DNA of 46,631 nucleotides from Thermoplasmata archaeon (GTDB taxonomy: Archaea > Thermoplasmatota > Thermoplasmata > Thermoplasmatales > GCA-001856825), in contig JAJYUV010000011.1 in NCBI GenBank assembly GCA_021792355.1, positions 1-46,631 of the forward strand, written 5' to 3'. Below the pieces are notes generated by a model. It was given only the letters and a program-made list of their open reading frames with translations. It was not told where the DNA came from and searched no databases. The position numbers were made by a program, and so were the translations under genes. Position 1 is the stretch's first letter, and the number at the start of each line of letters is the position of its first letter. Shown here piece after piece: positions 13,922 to 26,364 of this stretch.

Positions 13922-14283
13922 TCACTTGGAAGCGATGACGTCAATCTCAACTAACGTCTCACTGCTGGGAAAGGCTGTTACAACTGTAGTTCTGGCTGGT
14001 GATTTTTCTGGGAAATACTTGGAATAGATTTCGTTCATCCTCTGGAAATCCTCCTTCTTAAATAGATAGACTGTAGTTTTGACAACTTGTTCCATGCTGA
14101 ACCCTCCAGTTACAAGTATTTTCTTCACCTTTGCCATCGCGTTTTCCAGTTGTTCTTCAATATTGGTTGCCTTATCGGGAGCCGTTCCAACCTGCCCTGA
14201 TAAAAAAGAAAGTTTCCTGCGAGAACCGCGTGAGAGTAGTGTCCTGCCTTTGGTATATCAGGCACTTTTATTGCTTTTGACAC
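13922..14283 (-). pseudogene. ridA: RidA (YjgF/UK114) family gene with a -1 frameshift
   Basis: Two minus-strand frames together encode a RidA protein, the enamine/imine deaminase that protects cells from reactive PLP-enzyme products. The first contains KAGHYSHAVLAGNFLF, and the second, beginning near 14200 in the +1 frame, contains QVGTAPDKATN, TVYLFKKEDF and SPARTTV. Adding one base to the six-A run at 14202-14207 restores FLFLSGQVG and a 120-residue protein of normal length, with the RidA arginine (ARTTV) intact. The start chosen is GTG at 14283, which has a TTAAAT box about 25-30 nt upstream; an ATG at 14355 is the alternative. Decay, slippage or a homopolymer error are all possible. Confidence 0.8.
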
Positions 14284-14571
14284 AGAACGTATTAATTGTT
14301 GTAGATTTAAGATTTTTCTGAGATAGTCATGCACTGGTAAGCGGGAATACTCCAAGGAGATGGGGAATTAATTGTTAGAAATATAAGAGACTCCGTGCAA
14401 AGGAAGGCGGACAAGAGGCTGAATAAACTAAAGGAATGCAATGCAGCCAAACTCTATCGTTTACCTCAAGCATCGCCGATTCCATCTTCTTGATGTCTAT
14501 TCCACCCGAGTGCGCACTGGAAAATTTCTTCATGAATCTTAATAGCCAAATTGGAAAGCAGTTTTGAGAAC

Positions 14572-14928
14572 ATGAGAAAAGTAACTATCATCATAATGAT
14601 TGTTCTCCTCCTGTTTGCACTTTTCGTCTATTATGATCTTGCCGTACCTCACCCAACCACTGTTAGTACCATACTTACGCTCCCCGGCTCCAACCAGATC
14701 CTCAATTATTCTGGCAATTATTCTTACGGTAACTATACCCGTCTTCTTACCGACTACAAAAGCCTGATTGCTAACTTTACTCTGATATTCACCTCTATTC
14801 ACACTGAACTATCTCTTGCCTACCAAAGAGGCTTGACGATTGGTATTTTTGTCGGCATATTCTTTGGATTTCTATTCGGAGCGGTCCTCGAAGGAGTGAG
14901 AAGGAAACCTAAGAAGGATCAATCCTAG
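14572..14928 (+). CDS. Small bitopic membrane protein (118 aa)
   Basis: The ATG at 14572 gives an N-terminal membrane helix (KVTIIIMIVLLLFALFVYY), an outside loop of about 70 residues with several N-x-S/T sequons, and a C-terminal glycine-rich helix (IGIFVGIFFGFLFGAVL) followed by a basic tail VRRKPKKDQS. A TTG at 14551 could extend it by seven residues. It has no recognised family. It is the last intact gene before the casposon. The preceding 14284-14571 holds no convincing gene. Confidence 0.5.
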   Translation: MRKVTIIIMIVLLLFALFVYYDLAVPHPTTVSTILTLPGSNQILNYSGNYSYGNYTRLLTDYKSLIANFTLIFTSIHTELSLAYQRGLTIGIFVGIFFGFLFGAVLEGVRRKPKKDQS

Positions 14929-15091
14929 CTTCAATCAAGAAGACGTCAATAAAATCCGCAATAGGATCTCGTAGAGCGTCCGAAAAACCTACCTCCCAGA
15001 AATGAATGGTTTGCTTAAATATCCCCTCTATTAGATTTCAGTACCCGGGAAGGAACTCATTTCTGGACAGGGATAAGTAGGAGGTGAAGAA

Positions 15092-15220
15092 GTGAATTTA
15101 GGTAGAATGAAAATGGAATCCGAACCAAAACCAAGTGGGGGGGATATAGACAAGACCGAAAAACGTGCCGCTTTATTATCTGATACTACAAATATTAAAT
15201 TCTGGGCTCTTGTTTCTTAG
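15092..15220 (+). CDS. Short ORF with strong SD, redirected by the casposon insertion (doubtful)
   Basis: A near-perfect SD AGGAGGTGA (15079-15087) stands 4 nt before a GTG at 15092, and a TATA-like GCTTAAATAT lies at 15013-15022. The frame runs through the left target-site copy and 80 bp into the casposon (42 codons). In the uninterrupted locus it would have read on into the antisense strand of tRNA-Pro for a 30-codon peptide. It could be a real mini-gene or just chance antisense coding opposite a tRNA. Confidence 0.25.
   Translation: MNLGRMKMESEPKPSGGDIDKTEKRAALLSDTTNIKFWALVS
15125..15140 (+). repeat. Casposon target-site duplication, left copy
   Basis: CCAAAACCAAGTGGGG at 15125-15140 is an exact direct repeat of 26281-26296. 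The right copy includes the last four acceptor-stem bases and the discriminator of tRNA-Pro, so this left copy is the duplicated one. Sixteen bp is the maximal match. The true duplication may be 14-16 bp because G and C runs adjoin the ends. Confidence 0.93.
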
Positions 15221-15377
15221 ATTTGTACATTTCATTCAATGTTCTAGCTATCTTTGAGCTGTTCTTAAGACCCTTCCCTTGCCTTATTTTCTGCTTGAAA
15301 TTCCTCAAGCCTCTTTCCGATATCCCTCTATCCCTCACGTCCTTAGGCCTGAGTGATAATACCCAATCATAGAATTC
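15141..15377 (+). repeat. Casposon left terminal inverted repeat (237 bp)
   Basis: Starting GGGATATAGACAAGACCG, it is the exact reverse complement of 26044-26280 over all 237 bp by direct comparison. Identity stops abruptly after GAATTC (15372-15377). Read on the minus strand, 15195-15377 encodes the last 60 residues of PolB, so this repeat is itself a duplicated polB end. Confidence 0.95.
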
Positions 15378-15476
15378 GCTGAGGTTCTCATACTCAAGGT
15401 AAGAATCCTTATCTAACCCTAACAGGGATGCCTCGTCAAGGTTGTTTGATTCCTTAATATTGTAACGCTCTTTTGG
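15195..15476 (-). pseudogene. Truncated second copy of the casposon polB 3' end
   Basis: The minus strand encodes 93 residues ending exactly like PolB (...KKQEPRI). The last 60 are identical to the intact polymerase and lie inside the TIR. The 33 residues before them (with KESNN, DKDSYLEY) match PolB at 20 of 33 positions in my alignment, and an in-frame TGA at 15477-15479 closes the fragment. No start codon or upstream polymerase sequence exists; the restriction-modification gene ends directly next to it at 15480. It therefore comes from a related but different polB, homogenised only within the TIR. Confidence 0.88.
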
Positions 15477-15479
15477 TCA

Positions 15480-18161
15480 TTAGAAGGAGGTGAGCGGCCA
15501 GTAAAGGAAGTCATTCTCTACGATTGAAATTTCTTTCTGAGTCAAACCATATATTTTATAAATTATGTTGTCTATTTCCATACTCAATTTTTCGGATAAT
15601 CTAAGTGATTCGGCATCTCGGTCTGAACTGAATTTGCCGTCGGTCTCAAATGATGACATAATCGAAGTTATTTTTTCGACCTTGGCAATGACTTGCTCCA
15701 TAAGATTTGGAGGTATATCCGTTCGTAATGGAAAATTCCTTGCATAATCATACATGAATTCCATGGTGAGTTGAGACCGATTATATAAGTATCTATGTGC
15801 GAACCAACTGATGAGTTTGGAATTGAAAAAACCTACTAAGTACAATAGGTCAAGTTTAGAATTCCACAATAAAGTAACGGTCTTGTCTGCATAATAATCA
15901 TCGTTTGCATATGTACAGACTATCCTAGCGTTTCTGTAATTTGAAACAAGTTTCTCACCAAATCTTGAGATTATTCTTTGAAACAGCAATTTTTCACCCT
16001 TTACGTAATACGATTCAATGATGTCTGTCTTGGGAATATACCAATTTATTTCGAATCTGTACCTTTGAACATCTCTTCCTCGAATGCATGGAATGGTATC
16101 CTTTGAGCTGGTTTGTATAAGAAACTTTGCTACCATTCCACCCCAATTAACTTGTGCTATTGAAGACAAAGGCACGGCGTTTCTTATTACTTTTTCAAAA
16201 ATCGACTCATTATTCTCATCTATCCATAATGGGAATCTGTTTTCGGAAAACCACTTAGCGTGTATTGACCGAATATTAAAGGCATTTTTATTTGAAAAAC
16301 CCACTATTACCTTATCCTCCTTCGTACTAGTCTTTTTGGCAATCGCTATCACTTGCTCAAGTTCCACATCTCCAAATGCTTCCGATACATCCATTATTTG
16401 TGAAATTTGATTTCTTAATAGTAAGTTTCTTGTTCCGTTCCAACTTGTGACATAGGTAAGTTGCTTAGGCACTATCATAGCAAAAATACCATTAGGTTTC
16501 AAAACATCGAGTGATTTCGAAATAAAGTAAGAAGCGGAATTCCCAGTATTTTCATTCTTGAATTTGGCACTAAGAAATTCTTTTGACCTTATATCAAAAT
16601 CCGCACCATATGGAGGATTCCCGATAACAATATCGAATCCCCCATTTTTTATAATCTCTGGAAATTCCTCATTCCACTTGAAAGCCCTATCGCTTATGAT
16701 AGGGTCATCTATCAAGCTGTTTCCAACCTTGATGTTGTTTTGAAGTATCGGTAACCTCTGTTTTCTCTCTGATATTTGCAATAAAAGATTCAACTGAGCT
16801 ATTTCCACAGCTTTAGGGTCAAGGTCTACCCCGAATATGTTATTTTTAAGGATTTCAACCTTCTTTGAATAGAATTCCTCACTTTCAAGGGTAAGCTGAG
16901 CAAAATCTGAGTTATTCTTCCAGTAATTTTCTAATTCCTTGTAAGCTCTTATGAGGAAACTCCCAGACCCACAAGCAGGGTCAAGAACCTTGACATTTCT
17001 GATTTCCTCAGGTGAATGCATCTTTATGTAGTCACCAACTGTATTTTTCACGATATAATCTACGATGTAAGAAGGTGTGTAGTAGATGCCTTGCTCTTTC
17101 CTGTGAACTTTTGAAGATTCAAGTTTAACTCTCTTAGTTGTTGCCTTCAAGATGTTTCCCAGATATTGTTCATAGATGTTTCCAAGTACGTCAGATTCAA
17201 TTATGGCAAAATCGTATCTGTAAGAATTGTCCTCAGACTGATTTAGTCCTTCTATGACCTTTTGCAATACTTGATTTTCGACATAGAGGTCATCGCATAG
17301 ATGCTTTGCAAAAAGTTTGCTGTTATACTGGTCATCGAAGTAAGAATAAACCTTCGATATCTCCTTAACAAGCTCTCCTTTACCTTTAGAAGACCACTGT
17401 CTCACATTGGACAAAAGCTTATTCTCTTCGAGACCCCTATCCTCAGCGTTTCTTATAAAGATGAGGCGGTCAAGAATTCTCTGGACTGATTCGTCTATGT
17501 CATCCTGAGTTAACTGTTTTTCCTGATTGTTTTTCAGAATGTCCTTTGAAAGAGATTCCCTGAAACTTATCATATCAAGCAACAACTGTTTGTCAATGCG
17601 ATTTTTCAGTTGCTTCTTGCCGTATTTCAAAGCTTCTTTGTCTAGCTCGCTCCCTGCAAAAGATTCTTTAGACAGCTTCTTGAATCTATCATCGGTCAGG
17701 AAATCACTAGGATGTAAAATGAAAAACAGATTTCCGTATAGATTGGGTGATTTCCAGTCTGCATTGTAGATTGCCAGAGTTTCAAAGTTGGTCAGGATAG
17801 CCCAAGAACAAGATTTCATCCAAGAGTAATCTATCGCCTGAACGACATACTTAGCGTTGTTTTGTATATCTTCTTCTTTCAAGGACTTAGCTTCTAGGTA
17901 GAACTTAGGAATTCCGTCGATTCTGAATCCATAATCAACTCTTTTCTTTGATATCGTTTCCTCAGCACTTATTGAGCTATCTCTTTTTCCTCTGTTGTAA
18001 ACATTCCAACCTAGAGCTTCAAATAGAGGTTGAATGAAGTCCTTCTTTGTCGTCTCTTCGTTGTATTTTCTGATTTCACCCGATTTCTTTATTTCTTCAT
18101 ATTTTGTGATAAGTTCTAAGACTCTTTCGAAATCTATTCCTAGCTCAACATCAGTTGTCAT
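15480..18161 (-). CDS. Type IIG-like restriction-modification enzyme (nuclease plus N6-adenine methyltransferase)
   Basis: An 893-residue protein. The N-terminal part has VDYGF (about 75-79) and FYLEAKS (87-93), a PD-(D/E)xK-type nuclease signature. The middle has GIYYTPSYIVDYIV, DPACGSGSF (394-402, SAM motif I) and IGNPPYG (NPPY at 515-518, motif IV of N6-adenine methyltransferases). The C-terminal third would be the target-recognition domain. This order fits single-chain Eco57I-like Type IIG enzymes, which cut and methylate DNA. The ATG overlaps the end of the 486-aa gene by 11 bp and has a GGAGAG SD. It is casposon cargo, possibly for host defence or element maintenance. Confidence 0.88.
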   Translation of the reverse strand: MTTDVELGIDFERVLELITKYEEIKKSGEIRKYNEETTKKDFIQPLFEALGWNVYNRGKRDSSISAEETISKKRVDYGFRIDGIPKFYLEAKSLKEEDIQNNAKYVVQAIDYSWMKSCSWAILTNFETLAIYNADWKSPNLYGNLFFILHPSDFLTDDRFKKLSKESFAGSELDKEALKYGKKQLKNRIDKQLLLDMISFRESLSKDILKNNQEKQLTQDDIDESVQRILDRLIFIRNAEDRGLEENKLLSNVRQWSSKGKGELVKEISKVYSYFDDQYNSKLFAKHLCDDLYVENQVLQKVIEGLNQSEDNSYRYDFAIIESDVLGNIYEQYLGNILKATTKRVKLESSKVHRKEQGIYYTPSYIVDYIVKNTVGDYIKMHSPEEIRNVKVLDPACGSGSFLIRAYKELENYWKNNSDFAQLTLESEEFYSKKVEILKNNIFGVDLDPKAVEIAQLNLLLQISERKQRLPILQNNIKVGNSLIDDPIISDRAFKWNEEFPEIIKNGGFDIVIGNPPYGADFDIRSKEFLSAKFKNENTGNSASYFISKSLDVLKPNGIFAMIVPKQLTYVTSWNGTRNLLLRNQISQIMDVSEAFGDVELEQVIAIAKKTSTKEDKVIVGFSNKNAFNIRSIHAKWFSENRFPLWIDENNESIFEKVIRNAVPLSSIAQVNWGGMVAKFLIQTSSKDTIPCIRGRDVQRYRFEINWYIPKTDIIESYYVKGEKLLFQRIISRFGEKLVSNYRNARIVCTYANDDYYADKTVTLLWNSKLDLLYLVGFFNSKLISWFAHRYLYNRSQLTMEFMYDYARNFPLRTDIPPNLMEQVIAKVEKITSIMSSFETDGKFSSDRDAESLRLSEKLSMEIDNIIYKIYGLTQKEISIVENDFLYWPLTSF

Positions 18162-19611
18162 ACTCTCTCCGTAATTTCTGAAAATATTTAGATAGTGAAT
18201 CCATTTCTAATTTTATTACAGACTCGAATGTTGGGATTTCGTGTTCTAGTACCTTATATTCCATCATAGAAAAGTTTGGAAGGATTTGTAAAGTTGGAAT
18301 GTAAGGGTGAATAAAGAGGCTGTAATCATTCCATATCCTTTCAAGTTGCTCCCAATCATTTCCACCAAACGCACTTTTCAAAAACTGAAGTATGAAATTG
18401 GTAGTTGGAAACTTTGGAACACCATATGAGTAATGTTCCCACTTATTCTCCACATATGACTTGAATAATTCAACTTGGCGCTTATCGGCGGAATTGTTCA
18501 ATCTAATATTGCCTAAGCACTTACCAATTTCCTTAATTCCCTCCTCTATGACAGTCTTTTCGACATAAGGAATAAAGATGTTCTCCTTATATTTCGGAAT
18601 GGAAATGGTCGGTTCACCAAAGAGAGTGATGTACATTTCAATTGACATTCTAGTAACCAGTTCCTTACTAATTATTGATTTGAGCTCCGAATTCATTTGA
18701 ATTCCTTTTGGTATTAGTTTACCAAGCCACCTTAACTGCTCTGTGTTCTTTTTACGCCATTGTGGATTTACGTTCAACAGCATTGAGGGTATTCCTCTTG
18801 CCTTCATTTTCCAATATCCAAATGAATTTGCAGAGAGGTAGTCGTCAAGAATAAACCAAGAGAGCCTTTCAGTTAGACTTCGCATTTCTCTGTAACAAGC
18901 TGAAACATACCCATTTTCAACGAGACTTCTTATTGTATATATCCCGACTATGATTTCGGGAAGAAATTTAAGGAGAGAAGAAGTTGAATACGCCTTCTTG
19001 GTATTATCAAGTTTTTTCTTCAGAAAAGCAAGAAGACCGTCTAGAGTATTAAGAATAAACTCTTTATCTGTGTCGATAGCCGTGTTAAAAGATTCATGGA
19101 ATCTTCCCATCGAATTTTTTGCTATTGTATAATTCTGAGGCTGTAGTAAAAATATTGTTGCTGAAGTTAACTCTTCGCCATAAAATTTTGTTTGCTCGAT
19201 ATACTTGTATTTCTCGTATAATGTTACCTTATCCGAATCAGAAATGGTATCTATGAAGTTGAGGAACGCTATTTTATTAGGGTAATATCCAAAAAGGAAA
19301 GGTTTCTTGCCGTTTTTATTGACGTGGACATTTAAGGTAATGAAGGGTTTAAGAGTTAATCCTAGTCTGTTTCCTATTTTCTTTAAACTCTTTCTATGTG
19401 AATCATTAAATTCTTTTACGAGCTTTTCTGCACAGGGGAGAGCCCTATTTGAAGGTAATCTATCACACTTCCTCAATATCTCTAAGTATGCCTCTACAAT
19501 TAAATTATTTTGAACGTCCGAGTAAAAATGATGATTCATAAAGCCAAACAATTTTGCATTTCTCGTGTAATATTTCATAAAAGGAAGTACTGGAAGAGCG
19601 TTACTGTTCAC
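18151..19611 (-). CDS. Unknown 486-aa casposon protein, possibly with a HEPN-like element
   Basis: No family is recognised with confidence. It starts with GTG (19609-19611) overlapping the cas1 TGA and ends 11 bp inside the restriction-modification gene, so it is translationally coupled to both. The protein is mostly helical. YREMRSLTERL (about 240-250) and WNDYSLFIHP (about 427-436) resemble the paired R-x3-E and S-x3-HP motifs of some HEPN-like domains such as DUF5677, RNases common in toxin and defence systems. That reading is speculative. Position between casposase and restriction enzyme suggests a defence or transposition accessory role. Confidence 0.6.
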   Translation of the reverse strand: MNSNALPVLPFMKYYTRNAKLFGFMNHHFYSDVQNNLIVEAYLEILRKCDRLPSNRALPCAEKLVKEFNDSHRKSLKKIGNRLGLTLKPFITLNVHVNKNGKKPFLFGYYPNKIAFLNFIDTISDSDKVTLYEKYKYIEQTKFYGEELTSATIFLLQPQNYTIAKNSMGRFHESFNTAIDTDKEFILNTLDGLLAFLKKKLDNTKKAYSTSSLLKFLPEIIVGIYTIRSLVENGYVSACYREMRSLTERLSWFILDDYLSANSFGYWKMKARGIPSMLLNVNPQWRKKNTEQLRWLGKLIPKGIQMNSELKSIISKELVTRMSIEMYITLFGEPTISIPKYKENIFIPYVEKTVIEEGIKEIGKCLGNIRLNNSADKRQVELFKSYVENKWEHYSYGVPKFPTTNFILQFLKSAFGGNDWEQLERIWNDYSLFIHPYIPTLQILPNFSMMEYKVLEHEIPTFESVIKLEMDSLSKYFQKLRREYDN

Positions 19612-20789
19612 TTAATTTTCACCCTTGTCTTATTGTACACTTTCAATATATTTCCCTCTTTAATCTTCTTTTGCTGATACCACAGCGTTGATTTGTTTAT
19701 TCCCAACTCTTTTCTTTTCTGAGGGTCAATCGACATAATCCTTGACCTTACATCCTTGTTGTCCGCTCTTTCAATCCTTATTTCTGGAATCTGGAAATCT
19801 AAGGTTTTGGATTTACCTATCAAGTAACTGCTCAGTATCCTTACGTTCTCGTACAGGATATTATCAAGTGTGTACTGCTTACCTTTGAACTCGTATCTTC
19901 TATTGAAGTTCTCCTTTACTTTTTCAATCAAACGCTTAGCAGTTTCAGGTTTCAAACGAGTATGGTAATTCTCCGTAATGATAAAATCGCTCTTCTTTAG
20001 CTTCGCTTCGAGCAGTTCGATAACGGAATAATCGATAACGTATCGAAACAGCTCTTGCAAATCGTAAACGAGAGGGTGCTTTGAAGGTGTTATTTCGTGC
20101 AAGAAGCCGATTGAAGGGTCAAAACCTATCTCGTTTATCCTTTTGCGGACGTTCGATTCAAGAACCGCATAACCGTAATTGAACAAAGCGTTTACCTCAT
20201 CGGAAGCGTTCATGTTCCAAGAATACGATAGGTTTTTCCTCGTTTCGAAACGGAAATCCTTCGCTATTTCGTTGAAAACCTTCGATAAGTAAGACCAGTA
20301 TGCCGATGCGATTCTACCCTCGAACATCATTATCGTGTTCAGAGAATCTGAATCGTAATTGTTTATCTCGTTTTTTACCGTAACAGAATCGATATCGTAG
20401 AATCGGGATAGTCGATTTATCAGCCCTATCGAAGACTTGACCTTTTGTTTCACTATCTGATTTGCTATGTACAATCGCTTTTCGTTATCGAGATATGATT
20501 GGTATTGCTTTATCCTCAAATCAGCGTTATAGGTTTCCTTTGGTATCGCAGTATAAAGCATATTACCGTTCCAGTTTAGAAGCGACAAGGAAACGTCATG
20601 TTTCGATAACCAATACAGAGCTTCCAACGAAACAGAGCCGTAATGACCGTCCAAGATAATAGAATCGTAAGGTATCTGGCGAGGTCTGAACTCATAGCTC
20701 TCTGTTTCACTGTGTGCATTACTGACTCTTAGACAAGCTCTGTTTACTGTTATACTGACACCGTAACCAGACAGTAATAGGGGGTTCAT
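19608..20789 (-). CDS. cas1: Cas1-family integrase (casposase) with C-terminal HTH
   Basis: A 393-residue Cas1 homologue, the metal-dependent integrase that would join casposon ends to the target. The N-terminal beta-rich domain (1-80) has LDGHYGSVSLEAL and LLNWNGNML. The catalytic helical domain has FEGRIASAYW (E157), GFDPSIGFLHE (H231) and LVYDLQELFR (D243/E246), matching the Glu/His/Asp-type active site of Cas1. Residues about 345-393 (KELGINKSTLWYQQKKI) form an added HTH, as in known casposases and unlike most CRISPR Cas1 proteins. The ATG overlaps the upstream wHTH gene by 4 bp. No cas2, CRISPR array or effector gene is nearby. Confidence 0.96.
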   Translation of the reverse strand: MNPLLLSGYGVSITVNRACLRVSNAHSETESYEFRPRQIPYDSIILDGHYGSVSLEALYWLSKHDVSLSLLNWNGNMLYTAIPKETYNADLRIKQYQSYLDNEKRLYIANQIVKQKVKSSIGLINRLSRFYDIDSVTVKNEINNYDSDSLNTIMMFEGRIASAYWSYLSKVFNEIAKDFRFETRKNLSYSWNMNASDEVNALFNYGYAVLESNVRKRINEIGFDPSIGFLHEITPSKHPLVYDLQELFRYVIDYSVIELLEAKLKKSDFIITENYHTRLKPETAKRLIEKVKENFNRRYEFKGKQYTLDNILYENVRILSSYLIGKSKTLDFQIPEIRIERADNKDVRSRIMSIDPQKRKELGINKSTLWYQQKKIKEGNILKVYNKTRVKIK

Positions 20790-21811
20790 TTCTTAGCCTC
20801 TGGAAGGAATACTTCACCTAAGATTTTAGATGAGTCATCATTCTCAATAATGCTTCCATTCAGCTCGTCCGCTATCATCAGAGATTTTAGGATTGTAACA
20901 ACTGGATTATCCGTAATCACGTCGCTGAAATCAACGATTTCCTTCAAAATACCTATCTTGTCCTTTTCTGCAAGGGATTTATCCTGACCTAATGCCGCGA
21001 GCTTTACCAATTTATTAGGATTCTTGACAACGGCAGATAAGAAGAATTGAACTGCAACTCCAAACAGGATTTCTGGTCTCTTGAACTTTGGATTAAGCAC
21101 GAAATCCAATGCTGAAGGAGAAGTCTTCAAAATGGTAAGTAGTTGTCTTTTCTGTATTGCTGGAATGAATGAATCTAAAATATTGATAACGCTTTGTTTG
21201 GTGAACAAGGAATCTTCCTCAGTTGATATGAAACTAATGAAGCTGTCTGGTGACTTATTCTTCAGGTCTGTTAGTGACCCAATGTTATAGGGTTCAAACA
21301 GTTCTTTTCTGGTTTCTTTTAGCTGTTCAATCAAATTCAATTCTCCAGAGACTTGGGCTTCGTCTAAGAGAGACTGATATTTGGTGTCTTCTAATAAGAG
21401 TTCCAGTATTCCAGTATACATGTAATGAAGAACATTGTAAACGATAGCAACAAACATGTAATCCGATTCGATGAATTTTGTAAAATATTGGCTCTTCAAA
21501 AATTGTAACGCAAACCCTCGCTCTTTCAAATAATTAAACGAATTCCTGAGACTATCAAAGGATTCGTTTAGGAAATATTCATCGCTCAATCCCCTTCCTA
21601 CTTTAACTCTCTGAATAAGATTGTCATTCGACAAATCTGAAAGGTGCTTTCTAATAGTTTTTGGGTTTCTTATATTAAACGAAGTTTTAAGATTGCTTCG
21701 AATATCTGTTAACGATGCTTTGGGATTGTCTGAAATGAATAACAAGATTTCCGATTTCGTTCTACCGACTGGTTCTTTCTGGCTTGGTCTCCTTCTTTTA
21801 CGAGTTGCCAT
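20786..21811 (-). CDS. Winged-HTH DNA-binding protein, casposon regulator or accessory (341 aa)
   Basis: Residues about 18-78 (SEILLFISDNPKASLTDIRS...IRKHLSDLSNDNLIQRVKVG) have a typical winged-helix pattern: helix, turn, recognition helix, then a basic wing. The remaining 260 residues are helical and of unknown family. It is the first gene of the leftward casposon operon and overlaps cas1 by 4 bp (ATGA), so its product is made together with the casposase. It may repress the shared promoter or help bind element ends. Its ATG at 21811 follows an AT-rich TATATAAGAT region. Confidence 0.75.
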   Translation of the reverse strand: MATRKRRRPSQKEPVGRTKSEILLFISDNPKASLTDIRSNLKTSFNIRNPKTIRKHLSDLSNDNLIQRVKVGRGLSDEYFLNESFDSLRNSFNYLKERGFALQFLKSQYFTKFIESDYMFVAIVYNVLHYMYTGILELLLEDTKYQSLLDEAQVSGELNLIEQLKETRKELFEPYNIGSLTDLKNKSPDSFISFISTEEDSLFTKQSVINILDSFIPAIQKRQLLTILKTSPSALDFVLNPKFKRPEILFGVAVQFFLSAVVKNPNKLVKLAALGQDKSLAEKDKIGILKEIVDFSDVITDNPVVTILKSLMIADELNGSIIENDDSSKILGEVFLPEAKK

Positions 21812-22010
21812 TATATAAGATAATTTATCAAAATATAATAATATTGTGATTGTTAGACAGTATACCCTATGAAATTAGTTTTCACAGTATACCCTTTAAA
21901 ATAAAAAAATACCAATAATATTGAATCCTGCATATATGTATTGTGAAACTATCAACACAATCTAATGTGATGATTGCATTGACTGTCTTACTGGAATGTG
22001 ATAAAAAAAT
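21812..22010. promoter_or_regulatory. Divergent casposon promoter region with direct repeats
   Basis: This 199-bp AT-rich region separates the two casposon operons. The 12-bp word ACAGTATACCCT occurs twice on the plus strand (21857-21868 and 21884-21895), 27 bp apart, each with the palindrome GTATAC. A shorter word (T/A)TGTGA recurs near 21845, 21950, 21968 and 21995. TATA-like stretches flank both start codons. The repeats are good candidates for operators bound by the element's own wHTH or RHH proteins. Confidence 0.55.
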
Positions 22011-22367
22011 ATGAGACACATATTTACAGTGTCGGTCGACACTGAATTGGAAGATGAACTAAACAGTTATCAGAAAAACAGAGGATATCAGACAAGAAGC
22101 GAAGGTGCTATACAGTTGTTGAAAAGGGGTCTGAAGTATGATTCTGAGATTGAATCTCTACAAAAGAGAACAAAAGAGCTCGAAGGCAAACAGAATCAGA
22201 TACACTTGCCTTGTTCAGTATGTAGAAAGCCTTTTACAGTGTATGAGAGAATTGACGACCCTGTTTACAAGGATATGAAGAATACATACGCTAACTGGGG
22301 CCACAGCTCTTGCATCGACTCAAAAAGTAGCAAGGTAGAAGCATGGAGTTTCTTAAATCGAGGGTAA
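22011..22367 (+). CDS. RHH plus coiled-coil plus zinc-binding protein (118 aa)
   Basis: The first gene of the rightward casposon operon. Residues 1-45 (IFTVSVDTELEDELNSYQ...SEGAIQLLKRGL) look like an RHH DNA-binding domain. Then comes a short coiled coil (SLQKRTKELEGKQNQ) and a C-terminal module with CSVC and later H-x-x-C (GHSSC) that could bind one zinc ion. It is probably a DNA-binding regulator of the element. ATG start with no SD; the AT-rich TGATAAAAAA precedes it. Similar architecture is not known to me by name. Confidence 0.65.
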   Translation: MRHIFTVSVDTELEDELNSYQKNRGYQTRSEGAIQLLKRGLKYDSEIESLQKRTKELEGKQNQIHLPCSVCRKPFTVYERIDDPVYKDMKNTYANWGHSSCIDSKSSKVEAWSFLNRG

Positions 22368-22376
22368 GGAACGGGA

Positions 22377-22535
22377 ATGGAAAGCAAGAAATTTGCTGAA
22401 CTTGTTTGCTATCGTTGTGGCTTTTTTGATATCGCCTTAATAAACAACCAAGACGACAAGCTAGTCTATAAATGCCAACGTTGTGGCAAGGTATGGATAA
22501 AGAGGGATGGGGATGGTCTCACGCAAGGACTTTAG
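22377..22535 (+). CDS. 52-aa zinc-ribbon protein in the casposon
   Basis: The ATG at 22377 opens a 52-residue frame with CYRC (residues 11-14) and CQRC (33-36), spaced as in a zinc ribbon, and ends at TAG 22533-22535. It begins 9 nt after the RHH-zinc gene and overlaps the next gene (start 22507) by 29 nt in another frame. GGAACGGGA just upstream is a weak SD. Two intact CxxC knuckles and the tight spacing argue that it is real despite its size. Role unknown; possibly nucleic-acid binding. Confidence 0.65.
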   Translation: MESKKFAELVCYRCGFFDIALINNQDDKLVYKCQRCGKVWIKRDGDGLTQGL

Positions 22536-23181
22536 ATTTTCGCCTGATTTCAACACATATGAAGATTGGCTGAAATCCCAAGATGTAACAAAACCGTATC
22601 TTCAGAGAATCATAAGGGGTCATTCCAGATTCCCAAATGCTTCCCTGTCACAGTTAAGAGGTCACGCTTCAAAAGGTAGAAAATCGGTTTCAGAGCTTAA
22701 GGAGAGACCCATTTACAGTCGGTCATGGACTTCATTAAACAAACTAGAACTTGCTTCTAGAGGAAAGAGCCTTGAAGCACTGTCTAGAGTTAAAGAAGGG
22801 AAGAGTTTAACAAGAGCATCTAAGGATTTGCATACTTCGCTTAAAACTGCACTTGGCTATACGAACGCATTTCAAAAAGTAAAGGGGAGATGGATTCCGA
22901 AGGAATATGACCGTATATCCAGAATTATGAGCATATACGAAAATGGCAAACAAAACTGGATTGAAATAAGAGATTCAAGGACTGCTTCCAAGATTGGTAA
23001 ATACAACAATGCAGTGAAACAGTTCCTTGCAACTGGTAATGCTGACATTATTAATGAATTAAAAAAACCCATTAGAGACGCTCAAGGCCACTTGCATCAT
23101 TTTGAAATTGATTCTAACAAATTGATAGAGATAGCTGAGGCTCAGGAAGAGCCTGAGTTCTTTGAGATTTACAGGATATGA
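22507..23181 (+). CDS. Casposon protein of unknown function with HTH-like segment (224 aa)
   Basis: A basic protein. Residues about 90-115 (LEALSRVKEGKSLTRASKDLHTSL) look like a helix-turn-helix, followed by RISRIMSIYENGKQNWIEIRDSRTASKIGKYNNAV, a pattern I associate with small DNA-binding proteins of phages and integrative elements, and a C-terminal segment ending in an acidic tail. It overlaps the zinc-ribbon gene by 29 nt and the HNH gene by 4 bp. The start is ATG at 22507; a second ATG two codons later is equally possible. Function unknown, probably DNA binding. Confidence 0.6.
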   Translation: MGMVSRKDFRFSPDFNTYEDWLKSQDVTKPYLQRIIRGHSRFPNASLSQLRGHASKGRKSVSELKERPIYSRSWTSLNKLELASRGKSLEALSRVKEGKSLTRASKDLHTSLKTALGYTNAFQKVKGRWIPKEYDRISRIMSIYENGKQNWIEIRDSRTASKIGKYNNAVKQFLATGNADIINELKKPIRDAQGHLHHFEIDSNKLIEIAEAQEEPEFFEIYRI

Positions 23182-23600
23182 TTTCCCAGATTTCCCTATC
23201 TAGTGAAATACTTGAAGCTTTATACAAGGCTAAGGATATTGAAGATAGGGAATACGAAGAAGCTTTGAAATGGACAATCGATATCATTAAAAATCCTGAC
23301 AGACCAAAGCTGAATTACTGTGAGATTTGCGGTCATTCAGACAGAAAACTCGAAGAGCATCATATAAGAGGACAGAAACACGGAAATGAGTGCATTACGG
23401 TTTGCTACGAATGTCATACGAAACTGACAGACAGTCAAAGACTGTGGGATAGGTCATGGCTTGACCAAGACAGTGAGAATAAGGACTCTTTCCTCAAACT
23501 TGGACTTATAGACATATGCAACCTCAAGCACAAAAAGACTGGTGAGGAAATTTACCAGTTAATAGCAGAACAATTAACAGTGGGCTTAAGCTATGACTGA
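23178..23600 (+). CDS. HNH endonuclease
   Basis: A 140-residue protein with a zinc-stabilised HNH module: CEIC (C48, C51), EEHHIRG (H61/H62), an Asn in KHGNECITV, and CYECH (C76, C79, H80). HNH nucleases are a standard casposon component; a role in processing DNA ends or the donor is assumed but not shown. The ATGA overlap with the preceding gene and an 8-bp overlap with polB show tight coupling in one operon. No separate regulatory signal is seen. Confidence 0.88.
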   Translation: MISQISLSSEILEALYKAKDIEDREYEEALKWTIDIIKNPDRPKLNYCEICGHSDRKLEEHHIRGQKHGNECITVCYECHTKLTDSQRLWDRSWLDQDSENKDSFLKLGLIDICNLKHKKTGEEIYQLIAEQLTVGLSYD

Positions 23601-26226
23601 CATTTTCGTTAGAGCTTTCACCGATTTTGAGCATGAAGGTAAAGGGAAGTATCAGGAAAATCACAATCCCAACATTCAGTTGATTTTCGATACTGAAACA
23701 ACGACAGACCAATATCAGAATTTGCTGTTTGGGTCTTGCCTTGTCAGGACTAAAATTAGTTCTGGTTTTAAAGGGGAATGGTATCTATTCTATGGTAATA
23801 TCTCGGAAGAGAACAGAAAAACCATTGAACAGTACGGCAAAGAACACAACATCAATGTGATGAGTGTTAGGGGTTTCGTTGATGATATTTTCTATCATTA
23901 CGCTTACAGAATAAGAGCAGAGGTCATCGGCTTCAACTTGCCCTTTGACGTATCCAGATTGGCTATCGGATATGGAATATCTCGCAAAGCGAGAGACGGA
24001 TTCTCGTTCAAGCTGTCAGAGTATGCGAAGAAGCCGAGAATCAGGATACAGTCAATAGACCAGAAGAGGACTTTCATATCTTTCCTGAGAGCGTTGCAAA
24101 AGAAGAGCGACAGGAAATTCAGGCATTATTCAGGATATTTCGTAGACCTAAAGACACTGACATTTGCTCTAACTGACAAGTCTCATACATTAGATTCTGC
24201 ATGCAATGACTTTAACGTTTCAAGAAAAACACATCCCGAAGAGCATGGAAAAATAACAGAGAAATACATAGACTACAACATAAATGACGTGAAAATAACT
24301 AGCGAATTGTACCAATCGGCTTTAGTAAGATACAAAATGTTCAACTTACCAGATTCTGTTAACAAGCTCTATTCACCCGCATCAATTGGCAAGGCTTATC
24401 TGAGGAAAATGGGAATACATCCCTTCACACAAATGAATCCTGATTTCCCTAAGGAGATTTTGGGATATGTTATGTCTGCTTACTATGGCGGTAGAGCAGA
24501 GGTACGGATAAAAGACAGAGCTATCCCAATTACCAACCTTGATTTTACGTCAATGTATCCAACCGTTTACACTCTTTTAGGACTGGATAGATTCCTCAAG
24601 GCAAAGGACATTGGATACAAGCACGACAAAGAGGGGGTAGCTCAGTTCATTGGAAATCTCAGAATTGAAGATTTACGTAACAGGGATACGTGGCAAAGAG
24701 AGGAAATGCACTCAATCGTCCTGATAAAACCTAATGACGACCTATTCCCGATAAGAGCTGAGTATTCAAGGGAAGACAAGAACATAGGAATGAATTATCT
24801 TGTTTCAAGCAAACCGTTTTGGTATTCTATTCAGGACGTTATAGCTTCTTTTATGCTGACTGGCAAGGTTCCCGAAATTGTTGATGCAATTACTTTCTAT
24901 TCAGAGGGAATTCAAGAAGGATTAAAGGACGTTGAAATATCTGGAATCACAGTCAAAAGCGATGATGACTTTATCAAGAGGATAATAGAGGAACGAATCA
25001 GAGTCAAGAAGTCCAATAGTCCACAGAGAGACCAGATTCAGTTGATATTGAAGATAATTGCAAATGCCACTTCTTACGGCATATACATAGAAGAAAATCA
25101 GGAATCGTTAAAGAAGCCACAAGAGATATCCGTTTATTCCTCAGACCAGTTTGCCATTAAATCAGACAAAATCGAAAAACAAGGAGAACACTTCAACCCC
25201 ATTGTAGCAGTCTTATTGACGAGTTCAGCCAGATTGATTCTTTCAATGGCTGAACGTTTGGCAGTAAAAAATGACGGATACACAGCATACATGGACACAG
25301 ATTCGATGTTCGTCAAACCCGATAGGGTCAGGGAAATACAGGAATTTTTCAGACAACTCAATCCCTATTCCACTGAAACAGAGATGTTCAAGATTGAAGA
25401 AGACGATGAGGGAAGACCTCTGGATAAAGTCCTATTTTACGGAATTTCGGCTAAAAGATATTGCCTTTACAAAATGGAAAATGATGAGATTAACATAAAG
25501 AAATATTCCACTCATGGCTTGGGTCATCTTTTGAAAATAAATGGTGAACAGACATGGAAAGATATCCTGAGTAAGAAATTTGATGATTATGCTGATAAAA
25601 TAGCCGTATCCCAGATAACAATAACCAAGCCGTCAATCCTCAATCGTTTTAAGGCAATGAATGATAATAGGCCTCTTGATAAAAAGATAAAGCCATTCAA
25701 TTTCATGCTCGTTGGGTCTGATGTCAACGGGACTATCCCTTCTTTGCCTTACAGAAAAGACATTTCAGAAATCCAATACAGCAAATTTATAGACTACAGG
25801 ACTGGTAAATCATCTCACGAATTACCTTTGCCTTCAAACTACTACTGGAAATCCATTCAAGACGTGCTTATTCGATACGTCAGGCACAATGACCATAAAT
25901 TCGATTACGTAGAAGGCATAGCACAGAGGAAACACATCGTTGTCGATAGGATAAGATACATAGGCAAGGAATCAAACAACATTGACGAATCAATGGTCTT
26001 TGGATTGGATGAGGACTCATATCTCGAATACAACAATCTCAAGGAATTCTATGATTGGGTATTATCACTCAGGCCTAAGGACGTGAGGGATAGAGGGATA
26101 TCGGAAAGAGGCTTGAGGAATTTCAAGCAGAAAATAAGGCAAGGGAAGGGTCTTAAGAACAGCTCAAAGATAGCTAGAACATTGAATGAAATGTACAAAT
26201 CTAAGAAACAAGAGCCCAGAATTTAA
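23593..26226 (+). CDS. polB: Casposon family B DNA polymerase
   Basis: An 877-residue polymerase. The exonuclease has IFDTETT (Exo I, D33/E35), GFNLPFD (Exo II, N115/D119) and YNIND (Exo III, Y228/D232). The linker YYGGRAE (297-303) follows. The palm has DFTSMYPT (motif A, D317), ILKIIANATSYG (motif B, K487 to G496) and YMDTDSMF (motif C, D568/D570), then KRYCLYK (KxY). All catalytic residues are present, so both synthesis and proofreading look intact. It would copy the element, as in Polinton-like self-synthesising transposons. Its last 60 codons lie inside the right TIR. The start overlaps the HNH gene by 8 bp. Confidence 0.95.
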   Translation: MTDIFVRAFTDFEHEGKGKYQENHNPNIQLIFDTETTTDQYQNLLFGSCLVRTKISSGFKGEWYLFYGNISEENRKTIEQYGKEHNINVMSVRGFVDDIFYHYAYRIRAEVIGFNLPFDVSRLAIGYGISRKARDGFSFKLSEYAKKPRIRIQSIDQKRTFISFLRALQKKSDRKFRHYSGYFVDLKTLTFALTDKSHTLDSACNDFNVSRKTHPEEHGKITEKYIDYNINDVKITSELYQSALVRYKMFNLPDSVNKLYSPASIGKAYLRKMGIHPFTQMNPDFPKEILGYVMSAYYGGRAEVRIKDRAIPITNLDFTSMYPTVYTLLGLDRFLKAKDIGYKHDKEGVAQFIGNLRIEDLRNRDTWQREEMHSIVLIKPNDDLFPIRAEYSREDKNIGMNYLVSSKPFWYSIQDVIASFMLTGKVPEIVDAITFYSEGIQEGLKDVEISGITVKSDDDFIKRIIEERIRVKKSNSPQRDQIQLILKIIANATSYGIYIEENQESLKKPQEISVYSSDQFAIKSDKIEKQGEHFNPIVAVLLTSSARLILSMAERLAVKNDGYTAYMDTDSMFVKPDRVREIQEFFRQLNPYSTETEMFKIEEDDEGRPLDKVLFYGISAKRYCLYKMENDEINIKKYSTHGLGHLLKINGEQTWKDILSKKFDDYADKIAVSQITITKPSILNRFKAMNDNRPLDKKIKPFNFMLVGSDVNGTIPSLPYRKDISEIQYSKFIDYRTGKSSHELPLPSNYYWKSIQDVLIRYVRHNDHKFDYVEGIAQRKHIVVDRIRYIGKESNNIDESMVFGLDEDSYLEYNNLKEFYDWVLSLRPKDVRDRGISERGLRNFKQKIRQGKGLKNSSKIARTLNEMYKSKKQEPRI

Positions 26227-26280
26227 TATTTGTAGTATCAGATAATAAAGCGGCACGTTTTTCGGTCTTGTCTATATCCC
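26044..26280 (-). repeat. Casposon right terminal inverted repeat (237 bp)
   Basis: An exact reverse complement of 15141-15377. Positions 26044-26226 are coding (last 60 codons and stop of polB); only the outer 54 bp are non-coding. The terminus reads GGGATATAGAC inward on the minus strand. The right boundary is set by the adjoining 16-bp target duplication. Confidence 0.95.
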
Positions 26281-26296
26281 CCAAAACCAAGTGGGG
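26281..26296 (+). repeat. Casposon target-site duplication, right copy (tRNA 3' end)
   Basis: An exact copy of 15125-15140. It overlaps the last four acceptor-stem bases (26293-26296) and discriminator (26292) of tRNA-Pro and continues 11 bp downstream of the gene. Insertion at a tRNA 3' end with a long duplication matches known archaeal casposon target choice. Confidence 0.93.
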
Positions 26297-26364
26297 CTGC
26301 CCGGATTTGGACCGGGGTCTCAGGCTCCCAAAGCCCGTAGGATACCAAGCTACCCCACAGCCCC
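26292..26364 (-). tRNA. tRNA-Pro (anticodon TGG)
   Basis: A full cloverleaf can be drawn on the minus strand: acceptor GGGGCTG/CAGCCCC, D stem GGGT/ATCC with loop AGCTTGGT, anticodon stem CGGGC/GCCTG with loop TTTGGGA (anticodon TGG), variable AGAC, and T stem CCCGG/CCGGG with loop TCCAAAT, then discriminator A. CCA is not encoded and there is no intron. The casposon lies immediately downstream of its 3' end and the gene itself is intact. GATATTAA about 25-30 nt upstream (near 26388-26395) may be its TATA box. Confidence 0.95.

Follow-up and report, generated by a model that had tools for sequence, protein, structure and literature searches.

The 46,631-bp window analysed here, on contig JAJYUV010000011.1, contains at 15140-26281 what we conclude, with a probability of about 0.93, to be a complete family 2 casposon, predicted to have been inserted by its Cas1 beside a tRNA-Pro(TGG) gene through recognition of the tRNA T-arm and 14-bp staggered cuts. 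This reading is carried by the Cas1 tree, the core gene order, the terminal inverted repeat (TIR), the target site duplication (TSD), the tRNA target and empty sites in sister genomes. The family itself is already known; the member described here is new to it and has an extended repeat and a restriction-enzyme cargo. A preliminary description of this DNA had recognised a complete casposon of about 11.1 kb with Cas1, B-family DNA polymerase (PolB) and HNH genes. Our results bear out both the element and its size, which is 11,142 bp once the ends are placed in the frame of relatives. The same inventory had missed the tRNA-Pro gene at the target, a Type IIG restriction gene and the polB 3' end lying within the repeat. 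Related loci and genomes are referred to below by L and G numbers, respectively. The features that define the element are as follows (HTH, helix-turn-helix; pLDDT, predicted local distance difference test).

15126-15139: left TSD, 14 bp, identical to 26282-26295, frame taken from relatives
15140-15377: left TIR, perfect 238 bp, starting GGGGATATAG, 238/238 against the right arm
15195-15455, minus strand: copy of the polB 3' end (C-terminal HTH region) without the polB body; translation matches the PolB tail
15378-15455: inner, diverged part of the left repeat, 55/78 identical to 25966-26043 inverted
19608-20789, minus strand: cas1 (casposase), 393 amino acids, with a C-terminal extension (Pfam Cas_Cas1 1.4e-54; 6opm 1.6e-79; tree)
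23593-26226, plus strand: polB, B-family DNA polymerase with a C-terminal HTH-like tail, 877 amino acids (motifs; model pLDDT 88.5; fold match)
25966-26043: inner, diverged part of the right repeat, inside polB, 55/78 against the left inner part
26044-26281: right TIR, perfect 238 bp, 238/238 against the left arm
26282-26295: right TSD, 14 bp, its last 4 bases being the tRNA 3' end
26292-26364, minus strand: tRNA-Pro(TGG), the target gene, left whole (ARAGORN 26291-26364; Rfam RF00005 26292-26364)

Eight genes lie between the arms, all with open frames: those for the Type IIG enzyme, ORF486, Cas1 and HTH341 on the minus strand, and those for a ribbon-helix-helix-type protein, ORF224, HNH and PolB on the plus strand. 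The core order PolB-HNH-ORF224-Cas1-IIG is common to the window and L001, which is without ORF486, HTH341 and the ribbon-helix-helix gene. In 1-kb steps, GC content is 0.34-0.41 within the element and 0.40-0.49 outside it.

As described before, the Cas1 active site is intact: all four catalytic residues (E157, H231, D243 and E246) are present and align with those of the Methanosarcina mazei casposase 6opm. This is also the best PDB match (1.6e-79, residues 2-378), compared with 6e-22 for the best CRISPR Cas1. The alignment with 6opm runs to query residue 378, whereas CRISPR Cas1 matches stop by residue 328, which points to a predicted C-terminal HTH domain fused to Cas1, as in family 2. For a quick maximum-likelihood tree, 61 Cas1 rows were gathered and six genomic pieces shorter than 300 amino acids removed. 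In the resulting 55-row tree the window Cas1 stands with the casposases, among 31 casposon-side rows, apart from 24 genomic, CRISPR-side Cas1 proteins from the same order (Shimodaira-Hasegawa-like approximate likelihood ratio test, SH-aLRT, 100); all ten of the latter that were tested have a Cas2 neighbour. Placement inside a CRISPR subtype, the outcome named beforehand as speaking against a casposon, was not seen.

Target site, empty sites and age

A 16-bp direct repeat, CCAAAACCAAGTGGGG, is found with 100% identity at 15125-15140 and 26281-26296. It had been taken for the target duplication as a whole; the repeat is as described, but the true duplication, CAAAACCAAGTGGG, comprises only 14 bp, the other two bases being shared with the element ends. 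We rejected 16 bp in favour of 14 bp because the duplications of L001 (at tRNA-Val) and CP009479 (at tRNA-Pro; L104 plus L159) are cleanly 14 bp long, and their ends share the start GGGGATATAG. L091 likewise carries an identical 14 bp at either end, plus one extra base.

On the strand of the tRNA-Pro(TGG) gene, the sole tRNA gene of the window, the duplication opens with CCCA, the four bases that form the tRNA 3' end. The same arrangement recurs at 20 of 20 tRNA-side junctions examined, the window included: [TC][TC]C[AG]AATC, 8 bp, CCCA and then the element end. The distance from T-arm to element end is equal in 18 of them; L090, with an extra G, exceeds it by three bases, and L099 is one base short of it. 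The target genes are those for tRNA-Pro, Val, Ile and Met, one being uncertain (L091); ends of L013, L017, L094 and L105, with no called tRNA alongside, were left out of the count. Since most junctions were found through the end pattern, agreement in the first nine bases of the end reflects selection; the L009 and L099 junctions, found otherwise, read alike except for the first base or one G. The Aciduliprofundum boonei casposase has been reported to need TCAAATC 8 bp upstream of the duplication, which must itself begin with CC, and in M. mazei full conservation is described only for the first four TSD bases (PMC6614799). Because one T-arm/CCCA rule holds across different tRNA genes and agrees with the published A. 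boonei requirement, the target signal is likely the T-arm, common to tRNA genes, rather than one kind of tRNA. In the proposed mechanism, Cas1 would recognise the T-arm, make 14-bp staggered cuts spanning the last four tRNA bases and ten bases beyond, and join the element ends to the target, as the published A. boonei and M. mazei enzymes suggest.

Several further observations concern these sites. In the window, as in 10 of 10 sister loci, the tRNA-Pro(TGG) T-loop is TCCAAATC and has a C in place of the usual T. At L017 1276-1311, the PolB-side end is followed by a 14-bp stretch and then an inverted casposon end, that is, two casposons in tandem at one site. Genome G239 has at least two casposon loci among L156, L157 and L158, at tRNA-Met and tRNA-Val; L157 and L158 may be halves of one element split by contig ends.

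When 117 genomes of the order were searched for the right flank, close sisters emerged, from which ten loci were taken. None of them encodes any of the eight element proteins (E up to 1e-3). Both flanks lie on one contig in eight of the ten, and no left-flank match was found in L065 and L089. In L081, L086 and L087, the left flank (15085-15140) joins the right flank (from 26281) over one target copy, just as had been anticipated for a sister without the element; its 16 bases are identical to the window in L081, and one differs in L086 and L087. In the other five two-flank loci, the DNA just past the tRNA is too dissimilar for alignment, so that they attest to absence and not to a joined site. 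The opposite outcome, sisters carrying the 237-bp repeats with no insertion polymorphism, did not appear. Casposon remnants occur elsewhere in the sisters, in G006 (I-plasma) at tRNA-Val(CAC) and in G011 at tRNA-Val(GAC). Length varies in the stretch from the conserved left gene to the tRNA: it is 0.8 kb in the window (14282-15085), 0.24 kb in L082 and about 4.9 kb in L081.

The insertion postdates the separation from these sisters, whose right flanks are 75-83% identical to the window, a value that bounds the age only loosely. To this extent the earlier suggestion of recent movement stands, but the perfect arms and duplication on which it was founded give no date: homogenisation or short-read assembly could keep arms identical at any age, and a 14-bp duplication is too short for dating.

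Terminal repeats and the polymerase

The arms at 15139-15377 and 26044-26282 are identical over 239 bp when one target-shared base is included and over 238 bp at the true ends, so the perfect termini reported earlier are upheld, at 238 instead of 237 bp. Further in, the perfect match changes abruptly to 55 identical positions of 78 (71%); the remaining inverted pairs from the same search of the window are only 18-21 nt long. The perfect arms hold the last 60 polB codons and the stop, and the inner part extends up to codon 792, its differences falling 6, 2 and 15 times on codon positions 1, 2 and 3. Since a clean 238 bp next to 29% divergence is hardly what one old duplication would leave, the outer part was probably made identical later, and the ends are likely homogenised. 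At times one end might be copied onto the other, leaving a polB tail in both repeats and an identical outer 238 bp. Tails without a polB body are present at the IIG or Cas1 end of L002, L007, L008, L090 and L100, and adjoin a tRNA in L101 and L102; none was found at the IIG/Cas1 end of L001, L009, L010, L091 and L097.

The predicted PolB model has a B-family polymerase fold, and the exonuclease and polymerase motifs were rightly called intact: all 38 aligned sequences have D33, D119, D232, D317, D568 and K621, and 37 have N491. The best structural match is the protein-primed polymerase of phi29 (495-506 of 562-571 residues aligned). The motif spacings, by which these regions were compared, leave room for insertions of the TPR1 and TPR2 kind, as in phi29. 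Sequence profiles give a divided picture. With the 38-row PolB set they favour the protein-primed class, whereas four distant family 2 PolBs score 123, 142 and 85 against three RNA-primed sets and 86 against the protein-primed set, thus favouring two of the three RNA-primed sets with or without L091. The controls are no cleaner. Against protein-primed and RNA-primed polymerases, PRD1 scores 80 and 52 and His1 37 and 33; for phi29 itself the scores are 40 (the other two protein-primed polymerases) and 50 (six RNA-primed ones), and 18 archaeal PolBs reach 75 against the protein-primed set. The profile method resolves priming class poorly here, and therefore our reading of the polymerase rests on fold and spacing.

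On that basis we tentatively propose that family 2 casposons, including the experimentally used one of A. boonei, which shares the polymerase architecture, may replicate from their ends with a phi29/tectivirus-like PolB. PolB would copy the element, and end-to-end copying would let the repeats grow into polB and keep them identical. This seems possible, though short of probable. Seven terminal bases agree between the element ends and PRD1, a lead and not a test, and ORF224 is a candidate terminal protein by its place only. That PolB is instead an ordinary RNA-primed archaeal enzyme, with no terminal priming, has somewhat better than even odds in our judgement: family 2 PolBs have been called RNA-primed (PMC4046053, PMC4104785), the 38-row profile finds archaeal PolB in the PDB at 3.3e-5 and, with E up to 1, no phi29, and PF00136 matches 11 of the 38 rows against one for PF03175. 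The scores of the four distant PolBs point the same way, as does Foldseek, which by E-value ranks RB69 first and phi29 directly after. The identity of the arms has a further potential explanation that involves no copying, namely that an assembler collapsed them. The window is probably a metagenome contig, and short-read assemblers may merge near-identical arms; a collapsed assembly could thus exaggerate the outer identity, but it could not create the inner divergence. The abrupt drop to 71% identity is not something that collapse produces, and three other complete elements were assembled with arms that first differ at base 33 (L001), 16 (CP009479) and 14 (L091), so we consider collapse improbable.

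The Type IIG enzyme and other element genes

The remaining genes of the element are listed here.

15480-18161, minus strand: Type IIG restriction-methyltransferase, 893 amino acids (PADLOC REase_MTase_IIG, E 1e-101; Pfam HSDR_N, Eco57I, N6_Mtase, TaqI_C)
18151-19611, minus strand: ORF486, family unassigned, overlapping cas1 by 4 bases and the IIG gene by 11
20786-21811, minus strand: HTH protein (HTH341), 341 amino acids; weak N-terminal HTH match (SufR 2e-4, under cut-off)
22011-22367, plus strand: ribbon-helix-helix-type protein, 118 amino acids; N-terminal NikR match 1.5e-5, under cut-off
22507-23181, plus strand: ORF224, conserved casposon gene upstream of HNH and polB, in the same place in L001, L104, L091, L150-L153 and L158
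23178-23600, plus strand: HNH endonuclease, 140 amino acids (IscB HNH part 2.3e-4; Pfam HNH 0.042, under cut-off)

The IIG gene encodes a predicted DNA-cutting and DNA-methylating defence enzyme, with nuclease (HSDR_N), N6 methylase (Eco57I) and recognition (TaqI_C) domains in one chain. In a survey of 28 loci we found it in 12: ten have an open frame of at least 870 amino acids (L001, L002, L006, which runs into a contig end, L007, L008, L009, L010, L091, L097 and L100), one is broken (L092) and one is cut by the record end (L104). Three of the 12 (L001, L091 and L104) have a whole Cas1; the other nine have a partial one, and eight of these retain an open IIG gene. The Cas1 fragments of L009, L010 and L097 are about 330 bp or less from a contig end. 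The 16 loci without IIG comprise L090 with a whole Cas1, eleven with a broken Cas1 and four with PolB pieces only. Among ten aligned IIG proteins (the window included, L091 and L092 left out), residues 1-620 are 69-84% identical and the remainder 15-32%, with the exception of L008 and L009, which are 62% identical in the recognition part. The family thus looks like one chassis with exchanged recognition parts. The enzyme may help element or host and may for that reason be kept after cas1 and polB decay, which suggests that casposons deliver restriction enzymes able to outlive them.

We had suspected non-autonomous mini-casposons carrying IIG, from a 48-bp inverted repeat in L007, but this was not upheld: the loci look like one-ended remnants. 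An exact search with the first nine bases of the end found it on the tRNA side only in L002, L007 and L008. Allowing up to two mismatches in 15 bases gave no second end beyond Cas1 in L002, L007, L008, L092, L097 and L100. This looser search did not recover the known L002 and L007 ends either, and one of its matches in L002 falls outside the element. Among the decayed copies, L006, L008, L009, L010 and L097 retain in-frame C-terminal Cas1 remnants of 97-171 codons without stops (frames picked by tblastn), and slightly longer stretches in the L008 and L009 genomes contain stops; the stop-free remnants may reflect youth or use of the HTH end. The CP009479 casposon spans the record origin and has 1,326 bases without a match in mid-PolB, and its L104 IIG frame across the origin has a stop at codon 287-288. 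Casposon genes in metagenome-assembled genomes (MAGs) labelled Marsarchaeota, Nitrososphaerota and Parvarchaeota (L004, L013, L014) may indicate transfer or misbinning.

ORF486 adjoins the IIG gene in L010 too. Not counting the protein itself, 13 homologues were listed, of which two come from MAGs named as Nitrososphaeria and Parvarchaeota. ORF486 has no convincing Pfam match, and its model (pLDDT 77) matched nothing in the PDB at E up to 0.001. DUF5677, found in 3 of 14 aligned members (best E 0.22), and ten other families with one member each were too weak to assign a function. HTH341 has a full-length, 34% identical homologue in the casposon locus L158, and domain searches returned no family match for ORF224. 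As for the two HTH proteins of family 2, the HTH341 match is weak, and ORF224 is conserved in place with no family match. The HNH assignment made earlier holds, for despite the weak Pfam score the gene occupies the same position as its 26-56% homologues in casposon loci.

Two other interpretations of the element as a whole have to be considered. A CRISPR adaptation module, or a solo Cas1 remaining after array loss, would account for the Pfam Cas1 match. However, direct repeats of at least 22 bp and tandem arrays are absent from the window, and a six-frame search of it with a Cas2 profile returned nothing at E up to 10 while recovering 7 of 7 held-out controls, in agreement with the preliminary description. 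Together with the casposase position in the tree, the TIR, the TSD and PolB, this leaves such an origin a negligible chance. The proposed link between casposons and the origin of CRISPR belongs to the general literature, and the present locus adds nothing to it. A more serious alternative is that the insertion recently died or was a one-time event, looking intact with its mobility gone. A casposon-type Cas1 match occurs in 20 of 117 genomes of the order and is full-length in only four of those 20, which counts in favour of this view. Yet eight open frames, intact catalytic residues and perfect ends and target duplication speak against decay, and a Cas1 differing by one residue was found on a separate 7,950-bp contig; we therefore regard a dead element as rather unlikely.

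Several points weigh against the reading of a complete, Cas1-mobilised casposon with a retained restriction gene. Mobility through Cas1 is predicted, and the empty sites bear on it indirectly. The window T-arm has one mismatch to the A. boonei motif. The Cas1 tree is a quick search with long branches; of its 31 casposon-side rows, 17 P-numbered ones were placed there on similarity only, while L149, L154 and L155, also on that side, showed no PolB in the fetched stretch. The HNH and HTH proteins are weakly supported by family models. The eleven loci with broken Cas1 and no IIG gene do not fit IIG retention, and nonsynonymous-to-synonymous ratios (pN/pS), considered as a sign of selection on IIG, proved uninformative, with ranges that do not separate (0.12-0.34 for the IIG N-part, 0.12-0.42 for Cas1 remnants).

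Comparison with known systems

No casposon relative confirmed by Cas1 or PolB was found in IMG/VR, and a near-identity search of plasmids gave no near-identical DNA. We found no description of the present lineage in the open literature, which is not a firm claim that it is undescribed; a casposon-associated gene has been named in another Thermoplasmatales genome (PMC10354927).

The closest comparison is with L091, which we take to be probably AciBoo-C1, the A. boonei casposon. Both elements have PolB-HNH-ORF224 facing Cas1 and a methyltransferase, a target at a tRNA 3' end, a duplication starting with CCCA and ends reading GGGGATATA; Cas1 is 50% and PolB 48% identical. In contrast to the window, the arms of AciBoo-C1 differ from base 14, no polB tail is present at the far end, ORF486 has no match, and a 967-amino-acid methyltransferase in the same place is 23% alike over the methylase part. 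An N6 methyltransferase is listed for AciBoo-C1 in PMC4046053. MetMaz-C1 of M. mazei, another family 2 member, resembles the window in its Cas1, to which the alignment with 6opm over residues 2-378 attests, and in its published TIR, GGGATATAGG...AAAAAAACGC (PMC10359463). It differs in the length of that TIR (31 bp) and in its other cargo, and M. mazei casposons are described at tRNA-Leu sites (PMC6977970), whereas the window element is at tRNA-Pro. NitNCS1-C1 of Ca. Nitrosotalea, also of family 2, can be set beside the window by its description only: it shares the tRNA-Pro target, Cas1, PolB, HNH and two HTH proteins, but has a host from a different phylum and a fragmented polB (PMC6563490).

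Two of the enzymes have relatives outside casposons. The restriction enzyme has the nuclease, methylase and recognition parts in one chain, like other Type IIG enzymes (PADLOC REase_MTase_IIG), but is casposon-borne, with a recognition part that varies between casposons. PolB finds its best structural match among phi29-type protein-primed polymerases; unlike them, it has an extra C-terminal HTH-like tail, no known terminal protein and split sequence profiles. Overall, the window contributes a casposon that is apparently intact and has empty sites in its sisters, from an order in which only four of the 20 genomes with a casposon-type Cas1 match have a full-length one, and it shows one T-arm/CCCA target at all 20 junctions examined, over four kinds of tRNA gene, matching the published A. 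boonei motif. In most respects it is a family member of a known sort, and polymerase priming is the part worth a bench test: if it is terminal, an assay of how casposons copy themselves would be feasible with end oligonucleotides and one or two purified proteins.

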